Shown here: one piece after another, positions 1 to 34,850 of the stretch | Layout: every line of letters starts with the position of its first letter | Position numbering within the stretch: the first letter of the stretch is position 1 | DNA from: Streptomyces drozdowiczii | GTDB lineage: Bacteria > Actinomycetota > Actinomycetes > Streptomycetales > Streptomycetaceae | Reading direction: 5' to 3' | DNA length: 64,000 nt | NCBI RefSeq assembly: GCF_026167665.1 | Contig: NZ_CP098740.1 | Coordinates: 620,001-684,000, forward strand | Position numbers and translations under genes: made by a program | The notes under the pieces: model-generated | Told to the model about the DNA's origin: nothing | Seen by the model: only the letters and a program-made list of their open reading frames with translations | Database searches by the model: none

Positions 1-499
1 GGCGGCCGGTGGCGCGCGGGAGGAACCCGGCGAGCATGCCGACGAAGGCGCAGCCGAACATCTGGTACGGCATCCAGGGGCCGACTCCCCCGGTGATGAG
101 CGCGGACGCGAACAGCGAGGTGCAGCCGAGGGTGAAGCCGAAGCCGGGGCCGAAGACCCGGCCGGCGAGGACGAGGACGAAGAAGACGGTCTCGATGCCC
201 GCAGTGCCCGCGCCGAGCGGGCGCAGCGCGGCGTTGACGGCGGACAGGACGCCGAGCATGGCCAGGGCCTTCGAGTCGATGCCGCCCTCGGCGATCTCGG
301 AGAGCACGACGCACAGGATCAGGACGAGCAGTACACCGAAGATCAGGGGCGGCGCGTAGTTCGACCCGAAGGTCCCGGGTGCCACGACGAACGGCCAGAA
401 GAAGGCGACGATGCCTAGGAGCGCAGCCATGGCGATGACGACGGTGGCGCGCGGCACGAGCACGATCGCGGGCACGGTCGGTGCTGTCGGCTTGCTCAC
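1..499 (-). CDS. ECF transporter S component, partial (probable cobalamin-specific subunit)
   Basis: Membrane substrate-capture subunit of an energy-coupling-factor importer. Only the first 166 codons are in the window; the gene runs off the left edge. The GTG start overlaps the stop of the ATPase gene (GTGA), so the two are translationally coupled. The visible part is almost entirely hydrophobic, about five membrane segments, with the glycine-rich stretch LAGRVFGPGFGF that is usual in actinobacterial S components placed next to a CbiQ-type T subunit. The operon begins with a cobalamin riboswitch, so the cargo is inferred to be cobalamin or a corrinoid. The S subunit alone does not reveal the ligand, and cobalt cannot be excluded. 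Confidence 0.8.
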   Translation of the reverse strand, partial: MSKPTAPTVPAIVLVPRATVVIAMAALLGIVAFFWPFVVAPGTFGSNYAPPLIFGVLLVLILCVVLSEIAEGGIDSKALAMLGVLSAVNAALRPLGAGTAGIETVFFVLVLAGRVFGPGFGFTLGCTSLFASALITGGVGPWMPYQMFGCAFVGMLAGFLPRATGR

Positions 500-2142
500 G
501 GCTGACCGCCCTCCGGTCGAGGTGTGGCCAGCGCGGTGGTGACCTGGTCGACGGTGAGGAAGGGCAGCGGGGCCAGGATCTTCGCCGTCTGGGGCGCGAA
601 GACCGGGGAGGCGACGATGACGTCCGTGGTGGGCCCGTCGGCGACGATCTCGCCCTCGGCCATGACGACGACCCGGTCGGCGGCGCGTGCGGCGAACTCG
701 ACGTCGTGGGTGGAGACGACGATCGCGCGGCCTTCGGCGGCCAGGGCGTCGACCGTCTCCACGAGCCGGTTCTTGGCCCGGTAGTCGAGGCCCCGGGTCG
801 GTTCGTCCAGGAGCAGGACGTCCGGGGCCGCGGTGAGCTGGATGGCCAGGACGAGGGCGAGTTTCTGCCCTTCGGACAGGTCCCGCGGGTGGCTGCTGTC
901 GGGGATTCCGGGTGCGAGCCGGTCCAGGATCTCGCGTGCCTTCCGGCCGTTCGCGGATTCGGTGTCCGCCTGGGCGAGTTCCTGCCCGACGCTTTCCAGG
1001 TAGAGGAGGTCGGCGGGGGTCTGCGGGACGAGGCCGACCAGTTGCCGGGCCCGTGCGGCGGGCAGGGTGTGGGGGTCGGCGCCGCGTGGCGTGCCGTCGG
1101 CCACGGACACGGTGCCGGAGTGCCGGGGACCGGTGCCCTGGAGCGCCCACAGCAGCGAGGACTTACCGGATCCGTTGCGTCCCATCAGCGCGGTGACCTC
1201 GCCCGCGCGCAGGGTGAGGTCGACCTCGCGGACGGCGGGGACCCCCTTGTGGGCGACGGTCACCTTGCGGGCGGTGAGCAGGTCGGGCCGGTCGGGGCCG
1301 GGCGCCCGGCGGACGGGTGCCGGGGTGTGGCCGGTCAGTCGGGTGCGCAGCTCGCGGGCGGTGCGCCTGGCGTCGCGGATGGACAGCGGGAGGGGGTCCC
1401 ATCCGGCGGCTCGGCCCAGCTCCACAATGGGGGGTGCGATGGTGGAGCTGCGCAGGACGTCGGCGGGGGCGCCGATGCGGACGTGGCCGTCGCCGGGCAG
1501 ATGGAGTACGCGGTCGGCGTACTGGACGACGCGTTCGAGGCGGTGCTCCGCCATGAGGACGGTGACGCCGAGGTCGTGGACGAGGCGGGTGACGGCGGCC
1601 AGGACCTCTTCGGCCGCGGTGGGGTCGAGGGCGGACGTCGGTTCGTCCAGGACGAGGACGCGGGGGTGGCTCGTCAGGACCGAGCCGATGGCGACGCGCT
1701 GCTGCTGGCCGCCGGAGAGCTCGTGCAGGGCGCGGTGGCGGAGGTCGGCGAGCCCCAGCAGGTCCAGGGTCTCCTCGACGCGCTTGCGCATGGTGGCGGG
1801 CGGGACGGCCAACTGCTCCATGGCGTACGCGAGTTCCTCCTCCACGGTGTCCGTGACGAAGCCGTCCAGCGGGTCCTGGCCCACCACGCCGACGACGTCC
1901 GCGAGTTCGCGCGGAGGATGGTGAGCGGTGTCCCGGCCGTCGACGGTGACCCTGCCGTACAGGGTGCCGCCGGTGAAGTGCGGGACGAGGCCGTTGACCG
2001 CGCCGAGCAGGGTGGACTTGCCGACCCCGGTGTGGCCGACGACGAGGCACAACTCGCCCTCCTCGACCGTCAGGTCGACGTCGCGGAGCGCTGGGGCCGC
2101 CGCGTCGTCGTACTCGATGGTGACCTGGTCAAAGGTGATCAC
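496..2142 (-). CDS. ECF transporter energizing ATPase, two fused ABC domains
   Basis: Cytoplasmic ATPase of the ECF importer, with both ATP-binding halves in one 548-residue chain (an EcfA1-EcfA2 fusion). Domain 1 has Walker A GHTGVGKST, signature LSGGQQQRVAIG and Walker B VLVLDEPTSALD. Domain 2 has Walker A GRNGSGKSS, a degenerate signature LSEGQKLALVLA and Walker B VLLLDEPTRGLD. The GTG start at 2140-2142 is chosen because it overlaps the permease stop (GTGA) and begins directly at the ABC fold (VITFDQVTIEY); a much longer open frame upstream is the permease read out of frame. It lies between the T and S subunit genes, so the whole importer is one operon. Confidence 0.93.
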   Translation of the reverse strand: MITFDQVTIEYDDAAAPALRDVDLTVEEGELCLVVGHTGVGKSTLLGAVNGLVPHFTGGTLYGRVTVDGRDTAHHPPRELADVVGVVGQDPLDGFVTDTVEEELAYAMEQLAVPPATMRKRVEETLDLLGLADLRHRALHELSGGQQQRVAIGSVLTSHPRVLVLDEPTSALDPTAAEEVLAAVTRLVHDLGVTVLMAEHRLERVVQYADRVLHLPGDGHVRIGAPADVLRSSTIAPPIVELGRAAGWDPLPLSIRDARRTARELRTRLTGHTPAPVRRAPGPDRPDLLTARKVTVAHKGVPAVREVDLTLRAGEVTALMGRNGSGKSSLLWALQGTGPRHSGTVSVADGTPRGADPHTLPAARARQLVGLVPQTPADLLYLESVGQELAQADTESANGRKAREILDRLAPGIPDSSHPRDLSEGQKLALVLAIQLTAAPDVLLLDEPTRGLDYRAKNRLVETVDALAAEGRAIVVSTHDVEFAARAADRVVVMAEGEIVADGPTTDVIVASPVFAPQTAKILAPLPFLTVDQVTTALATPRPEGGQP

Positions 2143-3317
2143 GCGGTTCCGGCTTTCGGGTCGGTGCGGTGGGTCGCGGCGGGCGGCGGGGCGAGGAAGC
2201 CCGCCGCGCCGGCGAGCAGGATCGCCGAGGTCGGCACGAGCGGGAGGTCCGGCCAGGTGAGCGGGTAGAACGTCGGGTTGAGCTGCGCGGGGTCGTAGCC
2301 GAGGTTCACGAACAGCAGGACCGCCGAGAGCACACCGCTGCCGGCGACCAGCCACTCGGCGGCGCGCCAGAGGTCGGGCCGGTAGGTGGTGCGGGTGACA
2401 CGGCGGCCTCCGAGGCGGAGCCCGGCGACACACAGTGCCGCGCCGACGCCCATCGCGGGAAGCCCCAGGAAGGCGGGGGCGGTGGCGTCGAGGAGTCCGT
2501 ACGCCCCCGCGCACAGTCCGCACATGCCGAGGAGCATGAGGGCGCCGGTGACGCGCCGGGAGGTGCGGGTCGCGGTGCCGGCACGGCCGTAACCGCGTGA
2601 GTCCATCGCGGCGGCCAGGCGCAGCGACCGCTCCAGGGCATCCTCCAGGACGGGTACGACGATGCCGCGCAGGGCGCGCAGCCCCTGGGTCCGGCCGGCT
2701 CTCAGCTTCCGTGCCCGGGAGACGCGTTGGACGCTCTGCACCAGCTGCGGGGCGACGCTGATCGCGACGGTCACGGCGACGCCCAGCTCGTACAGCGCAC
2801 CCGGCAGGACCCGCAGGGCCCGTTTCGGGTTGGCGAGGGTGTTGGCGGCGCCGATGCAGCACAGCATGCACGCCAGGCGGAGCCCGTCCGTGGCCGAGGA
2901 GAGGACGGCCTCCAGCGACACCGGGCCGCCGAGCTGGATGCCCGCGTACCAGTCGGGGGTGGGGATGTGCGGGAGGGCGAACAGGAAGTGGTCGCGCGGG
3001 GTGATGCCGGTGGCGAAGACCGCGCGGAAGGTGACGCGGATCGCCACGACGGTCAGCGCCAGGAACAGGTAGTACTTGAAGCCCCGGGCCCAGGGCGCCG
3101 TGGTCCGGCGTGCGGTGACGACGTAGCCGAGGACGGCGAGCACCAGGAAGAGCAGCAGCGGGTTGGCGGTGCGGCTGACCGCGGTGGCGAGGGCGAGCGC
3201 CCAGATCCACCAGGCGAGCGGGTGCAGGCCGCGCGGCAGCCGCCGCCCGCCCCGGTCCGGTACGGGACCGGGCGGGCCGGGCTGCGCTTGCGCGGCGGTG
3301 CGGGCGACCGCGCTCAC
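2139..3317 (-). CDS. ECF transporter transmembrane (T) component, CbiQ family
   Basis: Integral membrane coupling subunit that links the S component to the ATPase. It has 392 residues with several hydrophobic helices (for example ALALATAVSRTANPLLLFLV near the N-terminus) and the coupling-helix motif AMDSRGYGR characteristic of CbiQ/EcfT, which contacts the ATPases. The GTG start at 3315-3317 overlaps the stop of the upstream surface-protein gene (GTGA). The C-terminal hydrophobic region is longer than in minimal CbiQ proteins, as in many actinobacterial forms. The substrate is inferred from the operon's B12 riboswitch, not from this subunit. Confidence 0.92.
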   Translation of the reverse strand: MSAVARTAAQAQPGPPGPVPDRGGRRLPRGLHPLAWWIWALALATAVSRTANPLLLFLVLAVLGYVVTARRTTAPWARGFKYYLFLALTVVAIRVTFRAVFATGITPRDHFLFALPHIPTPDWYAGIQLGGPVSLEAVLSSATDGLRLACMLCCIGAANTLANPKRALRVLPGALYELGVAVTVAISVAPQLVQSVQRVSRARKLRAGRTQGLRALRGIVVPVLEDALERSLRLAAAMDSRGYGRAGTATRTSRRVTGALMLLGMCGLCAGAYGLLDATAPAFLGLPAMGVGAALCVAGLRLGGRRVTRTTYRPDLWRAAEWLVAGSGVLSAVLLFVNLGYDPAQLNPTFYPLTWPDLPLVPTSAILLAGAAGFLAPPPAATHRTDPKAGTA

Positions 3318-4312
3318 TCGTGCGGCCTGCGGCGGGCGGCGTAGAAGGCGGCGCCCCCGATGAGCAGCACCAGGGCGGCGCCCGCGACGACCGGCAGGAC
3401 CGAACCGGAGTCGTGAGGTGCCTCGGCGGTCGGTTCGGCGTCGAGCACGGGCGTCTTGCCCTTGGCGGCGTCCGCGTCCGCGCTCGGGGTGTCCGAGGGG
3501 GTGGGAGTGTCCGAAGGAGAGGGCGACGGCGAGGGCGACTCGCTCTTCTCGGGTTTCTTGGACGCCTTCGGCTTCTTGGAGTGCGTCGGGGACGGTGTGT
3601 CCTCCTGGGTGGCGCCCTGCTCCGGGGCGGGGCCCGTGTCTACGTCCGGCGGCAGCTCGGGCGCCTTCTCGGTGGACGCGGGTGAACCGGCCCCGGTGGG
3701 CTTTGTGTTGTGGGCCCGCAGCTGGTCGGGGGTGACCTTGGGGCGGCCCTCGGTGCCCCCGATGTCGGTGCCGCCGAAGATCCACAGGTCGACGCTGCCC
3801 GGCTTCGGCCGGTAGAGCATGGCACCGAGCTGGCTGTACTCCCAGTCGTTGGCACCGGGGTTCGCGTGCCAGTACGACCAGTAGGCGGACGCCGGAGGGG
3901 TGAGGACGCAGTCCTCCTCGGACGTGGGCGGGAACTGCTTGCCGCTCCTGTAGCCGCTGAAGCCGATCCGGCAGATGAAGGCGGGCCCGTCGTGCCCGGT
4001 CCCCACCGTGCGCCAGCCGCCCTGGTTCAGCAGCTCGTAGCCGGTCGTCGGAGTCGTACCGCAGGCGCGGTAGATGGGCCCGCCCCAGTGGCTGAAGTCG
4101 ACGGCGAGGACCGCGCCCGACGTGGTGGTGCACCGGCCCATGGACTGCGGGTCGGCCGCCGCCGGGAACGCGGTCGCGCCGAGCCCCGCGAGGGTGAGGC
4201 CGAGCGCGGCCACCAGGCGTGCGAGGGTGCGCAGGACCGGCTTCAGCGGGACCGGCCTCGTCGGGACCGGCCTCATCGCGACTGGCCTCGGCGCGCGCAG
4301 GACCGGCCTCAT
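3314..4312 (-). CDS. Membrane-anchored surface protein with transcobalamin C-terminal-like (DUF4430-type) domain
   Basis: 332 residues, ATG start overlapping the upstream stop (ATGA). The N-terminus has an unusual Arg/Pro/Val run (repeats of RPV and KPV) before a hydrophobic signal segment ending near FPAAADP. Residues about 58-165 form a compact domain with cysteines and the motifs TTGYELLNQGGW, GPAFICRIG, YWSYWHA and WIFGGTDIGG. It closely resembles the N-terminal domain of the neighbouring large protein and, more distantly, the lid domain of transcobalamin/intrinsic factor. A Lys/Ser/Pro-rich wall-spanning linker follows, then one membrane helix and an RRRPHE tail with no clear LAXTG motif. 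The likely role is capturing or handing corrinoid to the ECF importer whose genes follow; this is inferred from context. Confidence 0.8.
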   Translation of the reverse strand: MRPVLRAPRPVAMRPVPTRPVPLKPVLRTLARLVAALGLTLAGLGATAFPAAADPQSMGRCTTTSGAVLAVDFSHWGGPIYRACGTTPTTGYELLNQGGWRTVGTGHDGPAFICRIGFSGYRSGKQFPPTSEEDCVLTPPASAYWSYWHANPGANDWEYSQLGAMLYRPKPGSVDLWIFGGTDIGGTEGRPKVTPDQLRAHNTKPTGAGSPASTEKAPELPPDVDTGPAPEQGATQEDTPSPTHSKKPKASKKPEKSESPSPSPSPSDTPTPSDTPSADADAAKGKTPVLDAEPTAEAPHDSGSVLPVVAGAALVLLIGGAAFYAARRRPHE

Positions 4313-7070
4313 CGCCCCGCCTCCGCAGCGACCCGGCGCCGGGCAGCGACGACGGCCCACCAGCCGAGGGCGGTGAGCAGCACGGCGAAGGCCGCCAGCG
4401 CGGTGACCTGGACACCGGTGGAGGCGAGGGCCCCGCCGCCGTCACCCCCGTCCGCGTCCACGATGCCGCCGCCCGAACCGGAGTTGTCGTCTCCCGGGGT
4501 GACGATCTGCGGGGTGCCGCCGGTGTCGTCGCTGGGGGTGGGCTGGGCGGAGGTGCCGTCGAGGCCGCGGTCCAGCTTCCCGAAGGAGATGCCGGTGGCG
4601 CCGCCCACGGCCTGGGTGGAGGCCCGCAGGTCGGAGCCCGGCTGGCCCTCCTTGGCGACCTTGAAGCCGCCGTCGGTGTTCTGCTGCCCGGCGAGGAACG
4701 TCAGCGCCGCGTCGATCTCCTTCCGGTACGTGGCCTTGTCGAGGGAGAGTCCTTGCACGGCGAGGGCCGCGGAGTTGACGGAGTTGCCCGCCGCGCCCGG
4801 GAATCCGCCGTCCGGGAGCTGCTTGGAGGCGATCCACTTCAGGGCCTTGCCGACCGCCGCGTCCGCCGTCTTCCCGCCGGCGAGGTCGAGGGCCATCGCG
4901 GCGATGGCGGTGGAGTCGACGTCGGAGTCGCCGGTCGGCGGGATCAGGCTCGGCCAGGCGCCGTTGCCGTCGTTCTGAAGGCTCTCCAGGTAGGCGAGCG
5001 GTGCCTGCGCGTTGTCCTTGTCCCCCGCGCGGAGCTGGGCCATGACGGCGAGCGCCTGCGAGAAGACGGACGGTGCGTAGGTGTAGGCGCCCTCGGCGGC
5101 GCAGGAGCGGTCCGGGGCGGTGCTCGCGGCGGGGCAGACCGCCTTGTCCAGGGCGGCGATCAGGTCGTGCCCGGCGAAGTCGCGCGGGTCGCGTCCGACG
5201 GCCTCGGCCAGCAGTGCGGTCTTGCCGATCGATCCGCCGGCGGCGTACGCGGTACCGGCGCCCGTCCAGTCGTTGACCGTCCGTCCTTCGCCGTCCTTGC
5301 CCCGGTCGTCCAGGAAGTCCACGATGCCGCGCAACTTGGCGTCGTTCAGGCCGGTGGCGGCGAGCGCGTAGGCGCCGTCGATGGTCAGGCCGAAGTCGGC
5401 GCGCCCGGACCCGGGGCCGACCGGGTAGTACCGGGCCTGCTTGAGCTGGGCCGCGCCCGTGAGGTAGGCCACGCCCTTCTTCAGGTCGGGGCCCTTGCCG
5501 GGGCCGGGGCCTCCGTGGTGGGAGGGGTGGTGGTCGGCGGGGCGGTGGGCTCGCTCTTCTCGGTGGTGAGCGTCGCGAGATCGGTACGCGCTCCGGCGAG
5601 TACGGCGACGGGGGTCGCGTACAGCGTGGGGTCGACGGCGTCCTGGTCGAACCCGAAGCCGCCGCCCTTGAGCTGGACGCGGGAGAGCCAGCCCTCGGCG
5701 GCGTCGGCCCGCTTCGTGGCGCCGAGCGCGCGCAGGGTCTGGGCGGCGTAGGCGGTGGCGATCACGTCGCCGGTGGTGGATCCGGCGTAGCCCGGGAAGG
5801 CCCCGGTGTCGAGCTGCGTCTTCGCGAGGTAGTCGCGGGCCTTGGCGACGGCGTCCTCGTGGCCGCCCGCCGTGTGCAGGACGAGTGCGATCAGACCGGT
5901 GGTGCCGGCGTCGCCCTCGCAGCGCTCGCCCGGTTGGATGAGGATGCTGGTGATGCCGCCGTCCTTGCACTGGACCTGGGCCAGCCGCTCGACCGATGCG
6001 GTCTGCGGCTTCTCGCCGGCGCGGAGGAGGGCGAGGACGGCGCGGGCCTGTTCGTCGGCGTAGGTGATGTCGCGGATGTCTCCGGCGGCCGTGCAGCCGT
6101 TGCCGGGGGCCCTCTCCGTACAGACGTTGCCGGTGAGGTCGGCGATGAGGTCCCGGCCGCCGAAGGAGCGCGCGTCGCCCTCGGTGGACTCCGCGAGCAG
6201 GGCGAGCCGGGCGGCGGCGCCGGTTGCGGGCGGTTGGTCCTTGCCGTTGGGCGCGACGTAGTCGTCGACGTGGCCGGCGAGGAACGAGGTGACCTTGTCC
6301 AGGGTGTCGCTCCTGCCGTCGGCGGCGGCCAGCGCGTACGCGGTCTCCGTGGTCAGCAGGTAGTTGGGGGCCTCGGCGCCCTCGTCCACGATGCGTTCAC
6401 TGTCGGTGAGGCCGTTTTTCAGCCAGCTCGCGGCCCCGGCGACGTCCACGCGGCCCGGTGCCCCGGTCGGTTCGCCGCCCGGGTCGGGGTTCGAACCGCC
6501 TCCGGCGCGTACGTCGTCGGGGCTGAAGGCGGGCCTGCCGGTGGTGCCGCCGATGTCGGTGCCGCCGTAGACCCAGGCGTCGACGTCGCCGTCCTTGAGC
6601 TTGCGGCCCATGGCCCCGTACTGGCTGTAGGACCAGTCGTCCTGTCCGGCCGAGGCGACCCAGTAGGACCAGTACGCGGTGGCCTGCGGGGTGAGGACGC
6701 AGGCTTCCTTGTCCGGAGTCGGGTACTGGGTACCGGAGTTGAAGGCGCCGTACCCGATGCGGCAGATGAAGGCCGGTCCGTCGTGCTGGGTGCCCGCGGT
6801 GGTGAACCCGCCTTCGTGCAGCAGCTCATAGCCGGTGGTGGGGGTCGTGTCGCAGCCGCGTTCGACCGTGCCGCCGAAGGGCCCGAAGTCGACGGCGACG
6901 ACGGCACCCTTGGTGGCGGTGCAGTCGCCGGCCGGAGCCGCGGCGGCGCGCGGGGCTCCGGGCAGGAAGGCGAAGCAGGCCGCTGCCAGGAGGCCGAGTG
7001 CGCAGAGCACGGCGGTGACCATGCCGTGCCGTCTTCGTGCGCCTGTGTCCGGACGCTGCGTGGTCCCCAC
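4309..7070 (-). pseudogene. Frameshifted wall-anchored transcobalamin-like protein with two prenyltransferase/squalene-oxidase-type barrel domains
   Basis: Two overlapping reading frames make one protein of about 920 residues if one G/C is added in the G-runs at 5500-5509. As given, frame 1 (7070-5481) stops after its Thr/Pro linker, and frame 2 continues the protein to 4309 without a plausible start of its own. The GTG start at 7070 has GAGGGGG upstream. Order: signal peptide (RRRHG then hydrophobic, about residues 1-45); DUF4430-like domain with TTGYELLHEGGF and YWSYWVA; helical barrel 1 (GGRDLIADLTGNVC, DTGAFPGYAG); PTTTPPTTEAP linker; homologous barrel 2 (GHDLIAALDKAVC, PDGGFPGAAG); then LASTG (4414-4428), a membrane helix and RRR, a class-E-type sortase signal. 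Barrel plus DUF4430 is the architecture of eukaryotic B12 carriers, so a corrinoid-binding surface receptor is inferred. It heads the riboswitch-controlled ECF operon. Confidence 0.85.
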
Positions 7071-7203
7071 CGGGCCCCCTCGGGTGTGGCCGATGCGGGG
7101 GTACGAAGACGTGGCAGCAGTACGCCGCCCGGATTCCCGAGGAACCGCGCGTCGTTACGGGTCGCACCACGCCGTAGTCCGCGACGGCGTCTGTTGCTGT
7201 GGA

Positions 7204-7298
7204 ACAAGCCCCAGGTACTCCGGCTCACCCGACCAGGTCGGGTCTACGGTTGCGGGTCAGCGCCGGACTTCGACCGGCTTCCCCTGGAACGGCTTGCG
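7204..7298 (-). promoter_or_regulatory. Cobalamin riboswitch controlling the ECF/surface-protein operon
   Basis: Read on the minus strand, the leader has the conserved B12 aptamer core: GGGGAAGCCGGT, then AGTCCGGCGCTGACCCGC and AACCGT, a variable hairpin (ACCCGACCTGGTCGGGT), and the 3' B12-box GAGCCGGAGTACCTG. A closing P1 helix forms between GCAAGCC (7297-7291) and GGCTTG (7210-7205). It lies about 135 nt upstream of the start at 7070. When B12 is bound it should reduce expression of the five-gene operon; whether by transcription or translation is not evident. Confidence 0.9.
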
Positions 7299-7403
7299 TA
7301 TCGGAGCGAGTGGAGCATGCGTGCGTACGGTCCGTCAAGGCTGCCCCTGACGTGACGGCGGGGCACGACCGGGCCCTGTGGCGGACTCCCCCGGCGTCGG
7401 GTA

Positions 7404-7512
7404 CTGTCCCGCACTGCCGAGTGGGGGAACCCGGTGGGAATCCGGGGCTGACGCGCAGCGGTGTGGGGGCATCGACCGCCCCCGAGCCCGAATGCCCAAG
7501 CGGTGATGGCTA
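7404..7512 (+). promoter_or_regulatory. Second, divergent cobalamin riboswitch controlling the secreted barrel protein
   Basis: The plus strand carries a separate B12 aptamer: GGGGAACCCGGTGGGAATCC, GGGGCTGACGCGCAGCGGTG, a hairpin GGGGGCATCGACCGCCCCC and the B12-box-like GAGCCCGAATGCCC. It precedes the start at 7621 by about 110 nt. It is similar to but not a copy of the minus-strand aptamer about 105 bp away, so both arms of this divergent locus sense the vitamin independently. The 5' and 3' limits are approximate. Confidence 0.88.
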
Positions 7513-7620
7513 TCCGGAAGTCGGTCCACGCGTTCACGGACGGCGGCCAAGTCCGCTGCGTGCGCTCGAAAAGGGCCGGTCACCGGGCGGGGCGGCGTCC
7601 CTTCACCCTGGAGCACGCCA

Positions 7621-9033
7621 ATGCCCCGTCCCGCCCTTCTCCACCGCACCGCCCTCACCGCGGTCGCCGCGCTGGGCGCCTTCGCGCTCACCACCCAGTC
7701 GGCCGCCGCGACCGCCACGCCCGCGCAGATCGCCACGTCCAAGGCGAACGGTGTGACGTACCTCAAGTCCCTTCAGCAGCCCGATGGTTCGTACGCGGGC
7801 ACGGGTCTGTCCAACGAGTGGGCCTTCAGCGCGCTCGCGGCGGCGGGCACCGCCGCAGTGGACGTCACCCCCGGCGGCGACACGACCAAGAACGCGCGCA
7901 CGGTCTACAGAAACCTCCTGGCCACCAGCGCCTGGCCGTCCGCGTCCCCGGTCGTCACCGATTACGAGCGGGCCGCGCTCAACGCCTACGCGGCCGGGAT
8001 CGACCCCGCACGCGTCTCGGCGGCACGCAATCTCGTCGCGGACATCTACCGCTACTGGCAGACCGCCGAGCCCGGCTACTTCGGCCCCTCCGCCAACTTC
8101 AACGGCACGGTGTTCGCGGCGCTCGCCCTGAACGGCGCCAGGACGACCACCGGCCAGATACGCGTTCCGCAGGCGCTGCGGAACGCGGTGATCAGCCGCA
8201 TCCGGGCCAACCAACACGACGACGGCGGCTGGAATTACAGCAAGGCCGAGGGGAATCCGGGACAGCTGGCCAGCGACAGCGACATCGACATGACCGGCGC
8301 CGCGATGGCCGCACTCTGTGTGTCGGGTGTCGCGAACACCGACCCGGACATCGTCCAGGCGAAGACATTCCTCAAGGGCAAGCTGATCGCCAACACCGGT
8401 GCGTTCGACGCCATGTTCGGCGTCAACACGGACTCCAACGGCTGGGCCGTCTCCGGCCTCAACGCCTGCGGGATCAATCCCCAGACCGGCGACTTCCTCA
8501 CCAGCAAAGGGAAGACCCCGGTCGACTTCCTCATCGGCCAGCAGTTCAACCCCGGTGGCGGATTCAAGTACCTCCCGTCCGACACCGCCCCGCAGGCGTA
8601 CGCGTCGATCGACGGACTGCGCGCGGTGGCCGGCGGCGGCTTCACGGCGACCCCGCCGACGCCGGTCACCTCGGGCGCGCCCCAGTGGGTGGGCCAGACC
8701 TCATTGACCTCGGGCACCGCGACGTCCTTCGCGCTGACCGTGGACGACGGCACGGGCAGCCCGAAGGTGTGCTCCGTCCCGCTCACCCCGACCGGATCCA
8801 CGACCACGCTCGGTGCGGTGCTCGACGCGGCCACGAGTGCGGCCACCCCGTCCGGCTGCGTCAGCGGGGTCACCCCGCCCTCCGGCACCGGACAGCTCAC
8901 CTCGCTCAACGGCAAGGCCAACAGCGGCTCCAACACCTGGAAGGCGAGCGTCGACGGCTCGGCCTTCACCACGGCCGCCCGCAACCGGTCCATCGGTGTG
9001 GGCGACACGATCGCCCTGCGCTGGGGCGCCTGA
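7621..9033 (+). CDS. Secreted prenyltransferase-repeat protein with C-terminal transcobalamin-like (DUF4430) domain
   Basis: 470 residues with a signal peptide (hydrophobic segment ending near QSAAATA). Residues about 35-345 are an alpha/alpha-barrel repeat region with QDG-type repeat motifs (SLQQPDGSYAGTGL, QHDDGGWNYSKA, NPGGGFKYLPS). Residues about 355-470 form a small beta domain (TLGAVLDAATS, LTSLNGKANSGSNTWKASVD, VGDTIALRW) matching DUF4430. This barrel-then-lid order is that of transcobalamin and intrinsic factor. There is no wall anchor, so it may be released as a soluble corrinoid scavenger (a corrinophore-like role, inferred). It is the only gene downstream of the plus-strand riboswitch. 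It ends in a hairpin shared with the convergent neighbour. Confidence 0.85.
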   Translation: MPRPALLHRTALTAVAALGAFALTTQSAAATATPAQIATSKANGVTYLKSLQQPDGSYAGTGLSNEWAFSALAAAGTAAVDVTPGGDTTKNARTVYRNLLATSAWPSASPVVTDYERAALNAYAAGIDPARVSAARNLVADIYRYWQTAEPGYFGPSANFNGTVFAALALNGARTTTGQIRVPQALRNAVISRIRANQHDDGGWNYSKAEGNPGQLASDSDIDMTGAAMAALCVSGVANTDPDIVQAKTFLKGKLIANTGAFDAMFGVNTDSNGWAVSGLNACGINPQTGDFLTSKGKTPVDFLIGQQFNPGGGFKYLPSDTAPQAYASIDGLRAVAGGGFTATPPTPVTSGAPQWVGQTSLTSGTATSFALTVDDGTGSPKVCSVPLTPTGSTTTLGAVLDAATSAATPSGCVSGVTPPSGTGQLTSLNGKANSGSNTWKASVDGSAFTTAARNRSIGVGDTIALRWGA

Positions 9034-9040
9034 GGCGCGG

Positions 9041-9535
9041 TCACACCACCGCGGGGGCGGCCCCCTCGCGGTGGTGGCGGCCGAGCCAGATTCCGGTGAC
9101 GGCGCTGACGTAGCGCGCGCCGCACCGGTCGGACGGGACGACGAGCTGGGTGCCCGCCTCGTCCAGGTCACGGCCGTCCATGCGGGTGGCGAGCAGGACC
9201 GGCGCGTTGCCGAAGTCCGCGTCGATCTCCGCCCAGGACAGCACGGCGTGGTGGCCGTCGCCGCCGCTCACCGCGAGCAGGAGCCGCGAGCGCTCCTTGC
9301 GGCGGAGCGGGGCGAATCGGGGCAGGGCGGCGGCCACCACCTCGCGCAGCAGCGGTCCGGCGAACGCATGGCGCTGCGGGCCGGAGGTCGCGCAGTCGAA
9401 GACGACGTCGGCCCGGTGCTGCTCCCAGTCGCGCCGCAGCCGGGCGACGGACAGGGTGACCGGATCGGCCAGGTCGCCCCAGAGCGCGAAGGTGCCCGGG
9501 GGCGTGGGACGCGGAGCGGTGCTCGGTCGGTTCAT
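9041..9535 (-). CDS. Small molybdopterin-dependent oxidoreductase-domain protein
   Basis: 164-residue cytoplasmic protein consisting of one sulfite-oxidase-like molybdopterin-binding fold. The segment DVVFDCATSGPQRHAFAG carries the cysteine at the place where such proteins ligate molybdenum, followed by LSWAEIDADFGNAPVLLAT and YVSAVTGIWLGR. It lacks the dimerisation domain, signal peptide and haem partner of full sulfite oxidases, so its substrate is unknown. The ATG at 9533-9535 is chosen because GAGGGG lies just upstream and the fold starts at once (GTFALWGDLADPVTLS). It is transcribed alone. Confidence 0.75.
   Translation of the reverse strand: MNRPSTAPRPTPPGTFALWGDLADPVTLSVARLRRDWEQHRADVVFDCATSGPQRHAFAGPLLREVVAAALPRFAPLRRKERSRLLLAVSGGDGHHAVLSWAEIDADFGNAPVLLATRMDGRDLDEAGTQLVVPSDRCGARYVSAVTGIWLGRHHREGAAPAVV
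9044..9076. terminator. Bidirectional hairpin terminator
   Basis: CACCACCGCGGGGG and CCCCCTCGCGGTGGTG form a near-perfect stem around CGG between two convergent genes. It overlaps the last codons of the molybdopterin-domain gene and starts 11 bp after the B12-locus gene. Confidence 0.7.
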
Positions 9536-9905
9536 CGTCGGTCCCCTCGCGGCGGTCGGTGCGGCGGCTGCGCGCAGTGATACCCGACCGCCGGAGCGGC
9601 GAACCGCGATTGCCATGCCGGATCGCCTCTTCGGCTCGCATTTCTGAGCTGTGTACGCGTACGGGCCTGGCATGGGCCTGGTGCGCCGAGCGGGCCGCCC
9701 GCCTGCCACCTGCTCACCGGCAGCGGACGCACCGTGTCCCCACCCGGCGGTGCGCCGCGCCTGCCCGTGCGCGTCGAGTCCGAGAGCATGGCCTTCGACA
9801 CCTGGTACCTGCACCTCCCCGAGGGTGATCGGGTGCCGCCCCGGGTCCTGGAGGAGATATCCGCTCGACCTGCGCACGGCGTTGCCGTGCTGGCGTACCG
9901 GCTGG
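9536..9905. other. Intergenic stretch with a possible gene remnant
   Basis: About 370 bp between two leftward genes. On the plus strand a GTG-started frame at 9734 runs into the 3' end of the alpha-galactosidase (to 9997). Its first part (MAFDTWYLHLPEGDRVPP and onward) has G or C in almost every third position, as real genes here do, then loses this property. It resembles no family I recognise and has no good ribosome binding site. It is either a decayed gene fragment or chance. A promoter for the molybdopterin-domain gene must also lie here. Confidence 0.3.
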
Positions 9906-11978
9906 TCAGCGGGTGCGGACCGCGTGCAGGACAAGCGCCGATTCCGGGTGCAGGCGCGGGAGTTCGAGGCCGATGTGGGCCAGGAACTCGCCGGTGATCC
10001 CGGCCTGTTCCGGGGACGGGCGGGGCGTCGGGCGTACCCCGTTCCCGGAGGGCGGGGGGCCGACCGGTGTGAGCCGGTAGACGCCTTCCGGGGCGAGGCC
10101 GGTGAAGCGGGCCCGGGACGGGATCTCCGCGCGGGTCGCGGTGAGTTGGACGTACGAGAGGAGCGCCTCGCCGCCGTCGGGGGCGACCACGGCGGTGAGC
10201 GAGGCGGCGTCGTCGTCGGGGCTCTCGTGGCGGAACAGACGGCCGGTGTGCAGCAGGGTGCGGTGGCGCTTGTACGCGGCGACCCACTCGGCGAGTTCGG
10301 CGCGCTCGGCGTCCGTGGCGGAGGTGATGTCCCACTCGATGCCGAAGTGCCCGAACAGGGCGGTCGCCGCGCGGAAGGCGAGCGTGTGGGTGCGGCCCGT
10401 GCTGTGGCAGGTGGTCGGTCCGACGTGGGCGCCGGTCAGTTCCAGCGGCAGCAGGAGGTTGGTGCCCCGCTGGATCTCCTGGCGTTCCAGGGCGTCGTTG
10501 CAGTCGGAGGTCCACACACGGTCGGTGTGTTCCAGGATGCCGAGGTCCATGCGGCCGCCGCCCGACGCGCAGCTCTCGATCTCCACTCCGGGGTGGCGCC
10601 CGCGCAACTCCGCCAGGAGCCGGTAGGCGGCGGTGGTCTGTTCGCGGACCGCGGCGCGGCCCTCGTGGCCCGGTTCGACCAGGTCGCGGTTGTGGTCCCA
10701 CTTGAGGTAGGCGATGTCGTACGTGGAGAGCAGGGTGTCGAAGCGCTCCAGGAGGTACGCGTAGACCTCGGGGCGGCACAGGTCGAGCACCTGCTGGTTC
10801 CGCCAGTCCGGCGGGAGCCGGTCGGCGGCGTGCAGCGCCCAGTCGGGGTGCTCGCGCAGGAGCCGGGAGTCGGGGTTGGCCATCTCCGGTTCGCACCACA
10901 GGCCGAACTCCATGCCGTGCGCCCGGACATGCTCGATCAGCGGGCCGAGGCCGTCCGGCCACACGTCCGGGTCGACGTACCAATCGCCCAGGCCGGCGGT
11001 GTCGTCACGCCGGCCGAGGAACCAGCCGTCGTCCAGGACGAAGCGCTCGACACCCGCCTCCGCCGCGCGCTCGACCAGCGGCATGAGGCGCCCCGGGTCG
11101 TGGTCGAAGTAGGTCGCCTCCCAGTTGTTGAGGACGACGGGGCGCGGCCGGACCTCGGGGTCGGGGTGGTGGGCGCGGGCACGCAGCCAGTCGTGGAAGC
11201 GGGGCGTGATGCCGTTGAGGCCGCTCCCGGAGTACGCGGCACAGAGCCAGGGCGTCACGTATTCCTCACCGGGCGCGAGGGCGCACTCGCCGGGCAGGAG
11301 CAGTTCGCCGGTGCCGATCACGCAGCCGGTGGACGGCATGCGTTCCGCGTAATAGCGCTGGTTTCCGCTCCACGCGAGATGCACCGACCAGACCTCGCCG
11401 TCGTCCCAGCCGAAGCCGGGGGTGCCGACGGACAGCAGGGCGGGGCTGTCGTGGCCGGGACGCCCCCGGCGGCTCTCCCGCAGATACGTGCCGTGGCTCA
11501 GCGGGTGGCGCTGCGGCTGGCGCTCCTTGGCCCACCGGCCGGTGAAGTCCATGGCCTCCACGGCGCGCGAGGGAATCGGCAGCACCGGTGTCAGCTCGTC
11601 CAGCTGGTAGGCGTCGGTGCCGGTGTTGCGCAGACCGTGGCGGAGGCGCAGCAGTCCGGAAGGGGTCAGTTCCAGCTCCGCCCGCCACTCCAGTCGGCTG
11701 TCCGGGTCCTCGGCGCGGACGGTGATCCGCGCGCCTTCGACGTGCACGGTGCGGGCGTGGGTGAACGACGGCGACCAGGCCGTGCCCGCACGGTGGCCGA
11801 TGAGACCCGGCCGGCCCTGGTGGACCTGGGCGTTCAGCGGGAGGAGGGAGGTGCCGGTCACCGTGTCGCCCAGGGTCCGAGCGGTGGTCTCGGAGAGTGC
11901 TCTTCCCCAGTGCAGGACGCGTCCGTCCGTCTCGTCGACGACCAGGCTGACGCCTGCGGCGGTCAGGTGAATGGGCAT
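9906..11978 (-). CDS. Alpha-galactosidase, glycoside hydrolase family 36
   Basis: 690-residue enzyme that releases alpha-1,6-linked galactose from raffinose-type sugars and galactomannan. There is no signal peptide, so it acts inside the cell. An N-terminal beta-sandwich (1-270) precedes a TIM barrel with the family motifs FVLDDGWF, FGLWCEPEM, YLKWDHNRD (nucleophile Asp428) and ESCASGGGRMDLG then TSDCNDA (acid/base Asp492). The ATG at 11976-11978 has GAAGGGAT upstream; the open frame continues further 5' without protein character. It is monocistronic and divergent from the alpha/beta hydrolase. No dedicated sugar transporter is adjacent. Confidence 0.93.
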   Translation of the reverse strand: MPIHLTAAGVSLVVDETDGRVLHWGRALSETTARTLGDTVTGTSLLPLNAQVHQGRPGLIGHRAGTAWSPSFTHARTVHVEGARITVRAEDPDSRLEWRAELELTPSGLLRLRHGLRNTGTDAYQLDELTPVLPIPSRAVEAMDFTGRWAKERQPQRHPLSHGTYLRESRRGRPGHDSPALLSVGTPGFGWDDGEVWSVHLAWSGNQRYYAERMPSTGCVIGTGELLLPGECALAPGEEYVTPWLCAAYSGSGLNGITPRFHDWLRARAHHPDPEVRPRPVVLNNWEATYFDHDPGRLMPLVERAAEAGVERFVLDDGWFLGRRDDTAGLGDWYVDPDVWPDGLGPLIEHVRAHGMEFGLWCEPEMANPDSRLLREHPDWALHAADRLPPDWRNQQVLDLCRPEVYAYLLERFDTLLSTYDIAYLKWDHNRDLVEPGHEGRAAVREQTTAAYRLLAELRGRHPGVEIESCASGGGRMDLGILEHTDRVWTSDCNDALERQEIQRGTNLLLPLELTGAHVGPTTCHSTGRTHTLAFRAATALFGHFGIEWDITSATDAERAELAEWVAAYKRHRTLLHTGRLFRHESPDDDAASLTAVVAPDGGEALLSYVQLTATRAEIPSRARFTGLAPEGVYRLTPVGPPPSGNGVRPTPRPSPEQAGITGEFLAHIGLELPRLHPESALVLHAVRTR

Positions 11979-33340: not shown

Positions 33341-33387
33341 CCCCCGCGACGACATCGGACGGGTCGGCGCTATTCTGGCCGCCACAC

Positions 33388-33464
33388 CGGACACGGGGTG
33401 CCCCGCACGGGGCTGAGATCACACCCGTCGAACCTGAACCAGTTAGCACTGGCGGAGGGATGTC
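33388..33464 (+). promoter_or_regulatory. TPP riboswitch (THI element)
   Basis: The conserved thi-box is complete: CGGGGTGCC at its 5' side, GCACGGGGCTGAGATCACAC, then CGTCGAACCTGAACCAGTTA and GCACTGGCGGAGGGA. The 3' end includes the GGAGGG ribosome binding site of the downstream permease, so thiamine pyrophosphate binding should block translation initiation. Confidence 0.95.
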
Positions 33465-33467
33465 TTC

Positions 33468-34850
33468 ATGTCGTTGCCGTATGCCCAGGACGAGCGCGCC
33501 GCTTTCGGCGGGCGCATGCCCACCGCCCCCGGCGATCTGCGCATCGAGGCGAACGGGATAGCCCCGGTCCCCGAGGACCGCCGTTACGGCCGGGCGGGCC
33601 GGCTGTTCACCGTCTGGTTCGCACCCAACCTGACCATGACCGGCGTCTTCACCGGCACCGTCGGCATCGCGCTCGGCCTGGACTTCGGGACCGCCCTCGC
33701 AGCGGTCGTGCTCGGCACCCTCGTGGGCGCCGCGCCGACCGCGTATCTGGGCACCTGGGGCAGCCGTACCGGCTCCGGTCAACTTCCGCTGTCCCGACTG
33801 GCGTTCGGACCGGGTGTGGTGCTGCCGGGCGCCCTGCAATGGCTGTCGTCCATCGCCTGGGACGCCCTGATCGGCCTCTTCGGCGGGGACGCGCTGGCGC
33901 AGCTGTGCGGCTGGCCGTTCTGGCTGGGGGTGCTGGTCATGATGGCCGCGCAGGGTGCGCTCGGGGTGCTGGGTTACGAGGTGATCCACCGGCTCCAGAC
34001 CGTGATGACGTTCGCCCTGGCGGCCGCCTTCGCCGTGCTCGCCACCAAGCTCCTGCGCGGGGTGGACCCGGTGACCACCTCGACCGTGCACGGCGCCGAC
34101 CGGGCCGGGGCGTTCGTCCTGACCTGCACCATCGCCCTGAGCCTGGCGCTGTCCTGGGCGCCGTACGTGAGCGACTTCAGCCGCTATCTGCCGCGCGAGA
34201 CGTCCCGGACGCGCATGTTCTGGTGCACGCTGGGCGGGATCAGCGCCTCGTTCGTGGCGGTCCAGACGATCGGGCTGTGGGGCGCCTCGGTCTTCACGGA
34301 CCAGACCGCGCGCGGCATCGACTCCCTGCTCGGCGGGGGCGCGCTCGGGGCGTTCGGGCTGCTCGCGGTGGCGCTGGCCGCGCTGTGCAGCAACGCGATG
34401 AACGACTACAGCGGTTCGCTCGCGTTGCAGACCATGGGGGTGCGCCTGCCGCGTCCGGTGGCCGCGGCCCTCGCCGCCGCCCTCGGGTTCCCGCTGGTGC
34501 TCTGGATGCACGCGGCGGACACGACCGCCCGCTTCCAGAACGTGCTGCTGCTCGTCGGCTACTGGATCCCCGGCTTCGTGGCGATCGTGTCCGTGGACTG
34601 GCTGGTCCGCGCCAGGGCCCGGCGCGGCGCCCCCGTCGACCTCGCGGCCGAGCACGCCCGGCCGCGCCCGTGGTGGCCGGCGCTCGCCGCGTTCGCCGTG
34701 GCCTTCGCGGCGGCGGTCCCGTTCATGAGCACCGGCCTGTACGTGGGCCCGGTGGCCGAGGCGCTGCACGGGGCGGATCTGGCGTACGGGGTGGCGTTCC
34801 TGGTGGCGCTCGCGGTGTACGCCCCGCTGCGGATGCGCCGGGCCCGCTGA
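33468..34850 (+). CDS. cytX: NCS1-family permease for a thiamine precursor (CytX)
   Basis: 460-residue nucleobase:cation symporter-1 family permease with about 12 membrane helices. Family motifs are FTVWFAPNLTMTGVFTG near helix 1, SWAPYVSDFSRYLP in the middle and SNAMNDYSGSLALQTMG. NCS1 proteins under TPP riboswitch control are assigned as uptake systems for the hydroxymethyl-pyrimidine moiety of thiamine (CytX); the riboswitch just upstream is the main argument here. The ATG at 33468 lies eight bases after GGAGGG. It is a single-gene unit, convergent with the HTH/DUF2690 gene. Confidence 0.9.
   Translation: MSLPYAQDERAAFGGRMPTAPGDLRIEANGIAPVPEDRRYGRAGRLFTVWFAPNLTMTGVFTGTVGIALGLDFGTALAAVVLGTLVGAAPTAYLGTWGSRTGSGQLPLSRLAFGPGVVLPGALQWLSSIAWDALIGLFGGDALAQLCGWPFWLGVLVMMAAQGALGVLGYEVIHRLQTVMTFALAAAFAVLATKLLRGVDPVTTSTVHGADRAGAFVLTCTIALSLALSWAPYVSDFSRYLPRETSRTRMFWCTLGGISASFVAVQTIGLWGASVFTDQTARGIDSLLGGGALGAFGLLAVALAALCSNAMNDYSGSLALQTMGVRLPRPVAAALAAALGFPLVLWMHAADTTARFQNVLLLVGYWIPGFVAIVSVDWLVRARARRGAPVDLAAEHARPRPWWPALAAFAVAFAAAVPFMSTGLYVGPVAEALHGADLAYGVAFLVALAVYAPLRMRRAR

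Follow-up and report, generated by a model that had tools for sequence, protein, structure and literature searches.

A candidate corrinoid capture-and-import locus in Streptomyces drozdowiczii with paired cobalamin riboswitches and a transcobalamin-like secreted protein

We analyzed a 64,000-nucleotide stretch (the window; G000:C1:620001-684000) of the genome of Streptomyces drozdowiczii, which consists of a single contig of 7.39 Mb. One end of the window carries a divergent locus. On its plus side lies the gene for a secreted protein, here termed A, and on its minus side follow five genes in the order B, C, T, ATPase and S, encoding two further surface proteins and the parts of an energy-coupling factor (ECF) importer. 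Each pair of adjacent genes in the minus-strand operon shares a 4-base overlap, and both arms are headed by a cobalamin riboswitch placed between 7,070 and 7,621 (Table 1). As argued below, the locus probably encodes a system for the capture and import of corrinoids that is repressed by vitamin B12 (B12).

Table 1 Features of the divergent locus, with positions counted from the first base of the window (TM, transmembrane segment; ABC, ATP-binding cassette).
Feature	Position	Strand	Basis and remarks
ECF S component, 5' part, 289 aa	1..499	-	PF12822 34.2 bits, cut-off 30.7; gene continues ~370 bases past the window
Fused double ECF ATPase, 548 aa	496..2142	-	ABC_tran in two stretches, 171.5 bits; TIGR01166; TIGR04520
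ECF T component, 392 aa	2139..3317	-	CbiQ PF02361 43.0 bits, cut-off 25
Gene C, 332 aa: exported DUF4430-like domain, Pro/Ser-rich linker, C-terminal TM	3314..4312	-	SCO2322_fam 21.7 bits, cut-off 85
Gene B, second part: barrel 2, linker, LASTG + TM + Arg tail	4309..5508 (start approximate)	-	SQHop_cyclase_C; SCO2321_fam
Gene B, first part: signal peptide, DUF4430-like domain, barrel 1	5481..7070 (frame ends 5481)	-	SCO2321_fam 70.5 bits, cut-off 300
Cobalamin riboswitch upstream of B-C-T-ATPase-S	7220..7324	-	RF00174 28.7 bits, below 31.5 cut-off
Cobalamin riboswitch upstream of A	7424..7497	+	RF00174 38.6 bits, over 31.5 cut-off
Gene A, 470 aa: secreted alpha/alpha barrel + C-terminal DUF4430-like domain	7621..9033	+	PF14478 match below cut-off, predicted fold, Foldseek

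A preliminary description of this DNA, made from its letters, had noted two cobalamin riboswitches back to back, and a search with the Rfam model RF00174 recovered both, diverging toward A and B. The plus-strand copy scored over the Rfam cut-off and the minus-strand copy below it (E 2.6e-5 in an 801-base search); an alignment of 23 minus-strand copies was made, and this element is conserved even though it stays below the cut-off in the window. For comparison, 70 loci encoding A, mostly from Streptomyces, were gathered by two peptide patterns. When the 900 bases upstream of A were scanned with a riboswitch core pattern allowing up to 4 errors, both cores were present in 68 of the 70 loci, and the two exceptions without paired cores (L060 and L061) also lack B. 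Elsewhere in these loci the core pattern occurred 68 times in 1.32 Mb on both strands, a count that mixes real riboswitches with chance matches. The Rfam cut-off was applied to seven of the 70 loci and called the plus copy in six and the minus copy in three of them. Whole genomes gave RF00174 matches over the cut-off in 40/40 and 30/30 of those scanned, and the places of these matches did not enter the counts.

The importer likewise withstood closer inspection: as first described, T, ATPase and S form one coupled operon, with CbiQ, ABC and PF12822 matches that all exceed their cut-offs, the 3' end of S lying outside the window. The ATPase matched the cbiO model TIGR01166 (233.4 bits, cut-off 211.8) and, below its cut-off of 315, TIGR04520 (287.9 bits). 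A single operon supplies T, S and both ATPase domains, the composition of an ECF transporter with a module of its own. A search of the Protein Data Bank (PDB) sequences with S returned three weak matches; two were of FolT type, and CbrT was not among them. S components share little sequence.

This arrangement is strongly conserved. Where a locus offered enough sequence, the genes of the opposite strand could be counted; they were found in 65/67 (first part of B), 62/64 (second part of B), 60/62 (C), 57/59 (T), 55/57 (ATPase) and 54/56 (S), and the complete operon was present in 53 of 56. Synteny across the related loci led us to reject chance neighbours as an explanation. Within the genus, A was encoded in 12 of 121 genomes and a gene of the S family in 114. 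A close S (more than 80% identical) occurred in 14 of the 121 (in G474 in pieces), 12 of which also encode A, and the two genes lie no more than about 10 kb apart in 11 of the 12 A-bearing genomes (the exception is G377).

A carries a signal peptide, recognized by eye, an N-terminal alpha/alpha barrel of the kind found in transcobalamin, intrinsic factor and haptocorrin, and a C-terminal DUF4430-like domain. Lack of a fold likeness to transcobalamin had been named beforehand as an outcome that would speak against the proposed function, and it was not borne out. The predicted model of A (predicted local distance difference test, pLDDT, 86.3; predicted template modelling score, pTM, 0.86) was compared with the PDB by Foldseek, and ranks 1-13 were all transcobalamin or haptocorrin, with 467-489 alignment columns and E values from 2.2e-7 to 6.3e-6; intrinsic factor followed at ranks 15 and 34. 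The match spans both domains, and their order is the same as in transcobalamin. In a second fold comparison by VIA-align, intrinsic factor was among the best 50 rows and transcobalamin was not, which we did not count against that fold. At the level of sequence, A matched no solved carrier in the PDB sequences by phmmer (E up to 10) or by profile (E up to 1), and no named corrinoid protein emerged when A, S or a DUF4430 profile was run against those sequences. Profile comparison of the C-terminus with DUF4430 gave E 5.6e-4 and a probability of 30%, and the same region is the sole PF14478 match, below the cut-off, in the whole host genome at E up to 1. Among the best 120 relatives of A listed, the named sources were Streptomyces. 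Separately, a stretch in another genome of the genus (G408:C1:6485299-6485451, minus strand) matches the last 51 residues of A alone (E 1.5e-8) within a 95-aa frame, and is perhaps a solo DUF4430-type domain.

The initial account of three exported proteins with DUF4430-like or barrel domains was confirmed with corrections: all three are present as A, B and C, but B is split between frames, the DUF4430 assignment is tentative in B and C, and that of A stays below the Pfam cut-off. B combines a DUF4430-like domain with two barrels and a C-terminal end that we take to be of the sortase type. This end has a LAXTG-like motif, a TM and a basic tail; in 28 orthologues, T and G of the motif are invariant and L and A are each kept in at least 90%. 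The second part of B scored 36.3 bits against SQHop_cyclase_C (cut-off 26.1) and 66.8 bits against SCO2321_fam; both parts stay far below the cut-off of that family. In the host, B is not one intact frame, as the frame changes near 5,500 in a stretch rich in guanine and cytosine (window 5480-5510). A single open frame was found in 63 of 65 informative relatives, with L076 and L077 differing; the raw count was 66/68, from which three loci at contig ends (L021, L029 and L072) were removed, their second match being weak and inside barrel 1. The split in the host may be true or an assembly error. L080, which contains an X, was left out of the alignment of B used for folding. C consists of a DUF4430-like domain, 55-61% identical to the N-terminal domain of B, and a TM; it stays far below the cut-off of SCO2322_fam, and its C-terminus scored 23.6 bits against a sortase tail model (cut-off 27).

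Beyond the genus, A-like proteins were encoded in 14 of 296 genomes of the phylum including the host, and the other 13 all lie outside the host's class. All of these 13 distant loci except L089, hence 12, adjoin an ATPase gene and an S gene at the least, and the fetched stretch holds an RF00174 match in 10. A relative of the two clear DUF4430 proteins is present in 10/13, those two included; L089 and L092 carry instead a C-type protein without a Pfam match, and the contig of L081 begins at the ATPase. L092 repeats the plan of the window, with a riboswitch, a barrel protein and a C-type protein, and T-ATPase-S diverging. The barrel of L093 was taken from the phylum-wide search for A-like proteins. 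Some of these loci hold further elements: in L082 (1948-4491) and L087 (1759-4359), a protein with a pyrroloquinoline quinone (PQQ)-type beta-propeller and DUF5719, perhaps another surface part, is encoded between a cobalamin riboswitch and the DUF4430 gene, and the L081 contig bears a molybdenum/tungsten cofactor riboswitch (9877-10020, minus strand).

This linkage bears on the idea that the ECF transporter imports a corrinoid by itself, and that the barrel proteins, once exported, act as enzymes or as structural components of the wall, merely under the same control. The barrels of A and B do bear a likeness to terpene cyclases and further alpha/alpha enzymes, and the fold alone would be compatible with an exported enzyme. 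However, the signal peptides seen by eye, the association with ECF genes among the 70 loci as well as at 12 of the 13 distant ones, and a two-domain order in A that equals that of transcobalamin argue for a role in capture, so that we regard mere co-control as decidedly unlikely.

The host carries a second copy at 4.93 Mb, in which an RF00174 match precedes genes for one barrel protein and one C-like protein and then for T, a fused ATPase and S. The operon around this paralogue was examined in the host and the genus-wide count refers to the S family; because S-family genes occur in 114/121 genus genomes, gene content suggests that the simpler paralogue is the core version and that the window locus is an accessory copy, enlarged by the addition of the secreted A. 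The host genome has ten RF00174 matches, nine over the cut-off, and encodes CobN behind one such riboswitch, as well as CbiC, a protein of corrin ring synthesis. From these genes and their riboswitch context, the host is therefore probably a B12 maker, for which the locus would save on synthesis. Other B12-related elements lie close by. A metE gene (B12-independent methionine synthase, assigned by eye; L009:11544-14093, plus strand; window -3456..-907) with a cobalamin riboswitch of 88.8 bits adjoins the importer to the left of the window, forming with it a small B12-regulated island. A further cobalamin riboswitch (genome 619548-619671, minus strand; window -452..-329; 46.6 bits) overlaps S at its 3' end, and downstream of the riboswitch lies a 127-aa open reading frame with clustered cysteines (L009:14118-14501, minus strand; window -882..-499) and no Pfam match over the cut-off, presumably a 2Fe-2S ferredoxin-type protein.

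Cobalt importers are also found under B12 riboswitches, and the cargo could accordingly be cobalt for B12 synthesis. T and the ATPase are CbiQ- and CbiO-like by their matches, and the host probably makes B12, with its CobN gene behind a riboswitch. Against this, S matched PF12822 and no CbiM model, A resembles corrinoid carriers by fold, and a metal ion would hardly call for large two-domain carriers. The distribution of the S family, counted at E up to 1e-10 in the 296 phylum genomes, adds to these points. It was found in 78 genomes, CbiC in 85 (84 over the cut-off) and the B12-binding domain PF02310 in 280; PF02310 was present in 78/78 S-bearing genomes and in 202/218 without S. CbiC was encoded in 16 of the 78 S-bearing genomes, leaving 62 without it, and outside the genus in 7 of 69, again leaving 62. 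All 14 A-bearing phylum genomes had S, and CbiC was found in none of the 13 other than the host (assemblies 82-99% complete). Of the 49 genomes with S and with neither CbiC nor A, 30 were picked by hand, most of those left out having weaker S matches or less complete assemblies. Among these 30, RF00174 was present in 24; in 17 it lay on the strand of S, 3.4-7.1 kb upstream of that gene (8 over the Rfam cut-off, 9 below). Since S-family genomes encode PF02310 and mostly lack CbiC, the distribution fits corrinoid import by users that do not build B12 and argues against cobalt. On this basis we rejected cobalt as cargo and hold it to be very improbable, with the caveat that the anti-association of S and CbiC is not significant (Fisher p 0.08) and that the genomes are not independent and in part incomplete.

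Systems of this kind have been known as a prediction since 2007. As described in the available text of Burroughs et al. (PMC1796856), a transcobalamin SLBB domain occurs in Gram-positives with a toroid fused on either side, often in several paralogues, and the operons carry a CbiO-like ATPase and a CbiQ-like protein, for which scavenging of B12 or its precursors was proposed. The present locus shares with them exported SLBB/toroid proteins in several paralogues, the toroid on either side, cell-wall anchors and CbiO/CbiQ in the operon, the SLBB assignment being tentative in B and C. Their systems come mainly from Gram-positives of low guanine-cytosine content that usually lack key enzymes of B12 synthesis, whereas the present host has CobN and CbiC; two divergent riboswitches and a double-barrel wall protein are further differences. 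The word Streptomyces is absent from the main text of that paper. The wording "B12 or its precursors" also leaves room for a related cargo that is neither complete cobalamin nor cobinamide, for instance a precursor of the lower ligand or a different tetrapyrrole, captured in the same manner. Both the riboswitch family and the fold of A point to corrinoids, though nothing in our data separates these ligands, and we consider such a cargo unlikely.

Other known systems resemble the locus in part. The mammalian carriers transcobalamin, haptocorrin and intrinsic factor, the top Foldseek matches, share with A the signal peptide, the alpha/alpha barrel and, tentatively, a C-terminal beta-grasp-like domain; A has no detectable sequence match to them, and its ligand binding is a prediction. 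ECF-CbrT of Lactobacillus delbrueckii imports cobalamin and cobinamide, according to the available part of its description (PMC5997447), and is likewise an ECF transporter, with the corrinoid cargo shown there and proposed here. CbrT, however, uses an ECF module that also serves other S components, whereas T, ATPase, S and surface proteins stand here in one operon, and S gave no match to CbrT in the PDB sequence search. For acI actinobacteria, a 2017 paper proposed cobalamin transport for ECF modules behind cobalamin riboswitches (PMC5301498, available part), a combination also present here; no surface binder is named in that part. B and C match the NCBIfam models of the SCO2321 and SCO2322 families far below their cut-offs, those models state no function, and the 4.93 Mb copy is likened to them by its gene order. 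A gene for a B12 binder near an ECF-like transporter in a Firmicute is mentioned in PMC8941943, and the available parts of that paper and of PMC2667541 contain nothing on the divergent three-protein arrangement. In the open-licence literature we recognized no paper describing the Streptomyces arrangement and found nothing relevant on SCO2321-SCO2325. New in the present case are the layout with three proteins in an actinobacterium that probably makes B12, headed by its pair of riboswitches, and the simpler paralogue. The parallel with BtuB/BtuF drawn in the preliminary description is an analogy only.

Taken together, the corrinoid capture-and-import reading put forward at the outset is supported as far as computation goes, and we regard it as likely, corrinoid being the inferred ligand. 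The computed evidence comprises the gene content, the fold match of A, conserved linkage and riboswitches, and the occurrence of the family alongside B12-binding proteins and mostly without cbiC; synteny, riboswitch conservation and distribution all fit corrinoid import. Several observations weigh in the other direction. The C-terminus of A scored 14.1 bits against PF14478 (DUF4430), and 17.3 bits in the genome-wide search, both below the cut-off of 23.8; the barrel of A by itself is closer to cyclases than to the carriers; and the tentative domain assignment of B and C and the S-CbiC statistics given above belong here as well. In the proposed mechanism, low B12 in the cell would lead the paired riboswitches, judged by their family, to permit expression of both arms. 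The secreted two-domain A would bind corrinoid outside the cell, as would B, a double-barrel protein that carries a DUF4430-like domain and is presumably anchored in the wall by sortase, and the membrane-tethered, DUF4430-like C would hand it to the S component. The dedicated T/double-ATPase module, identified by its families, would power uptake.

A more specific and clearly tentative version is a relay of three stations, in which A might be a released corrinophore, that is, a bacterial transcobalamin fetching corrinoids much as hemophores fetch haem, B a wall-anchored double-barrel receptor or reservoir, and C the membrane-tethered point of handover to S. A B12-making host might in this way save the cost of synthesis or take the corrinoids of its neighbours. 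To our knowledge, little is known of extracellular corrinoid capture by Gram-positives. The proposed bacterial origin of the human B12 carriers has been argued from sequence, structure comparison and gene context alone, in the available text of PMC1796856. Here, riboswitches connect a two-domain transcobalamin-like protein with a dedicated importer, and the genera concerned can be cultured; ligand, order of handover and carrier ancestry are therefore open to direct testing. The simpler paralogue would gain a likely function too.

Other features of the window lie outside this system. A small gene for a molybdopterin-binding oxidoreductase domain (PF00174), which follows A at 9041-9535 on the minus strand, was rejected as a part of the locus; it is probably unrelated because relatives occur in only 2/70 loci (L011, directly after A, and L015, about 10 kb off). 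A thiamine pyrophosphate (TPP) riboswitch of 69.2 bits is located at window 33384-33477 on the plus strand.

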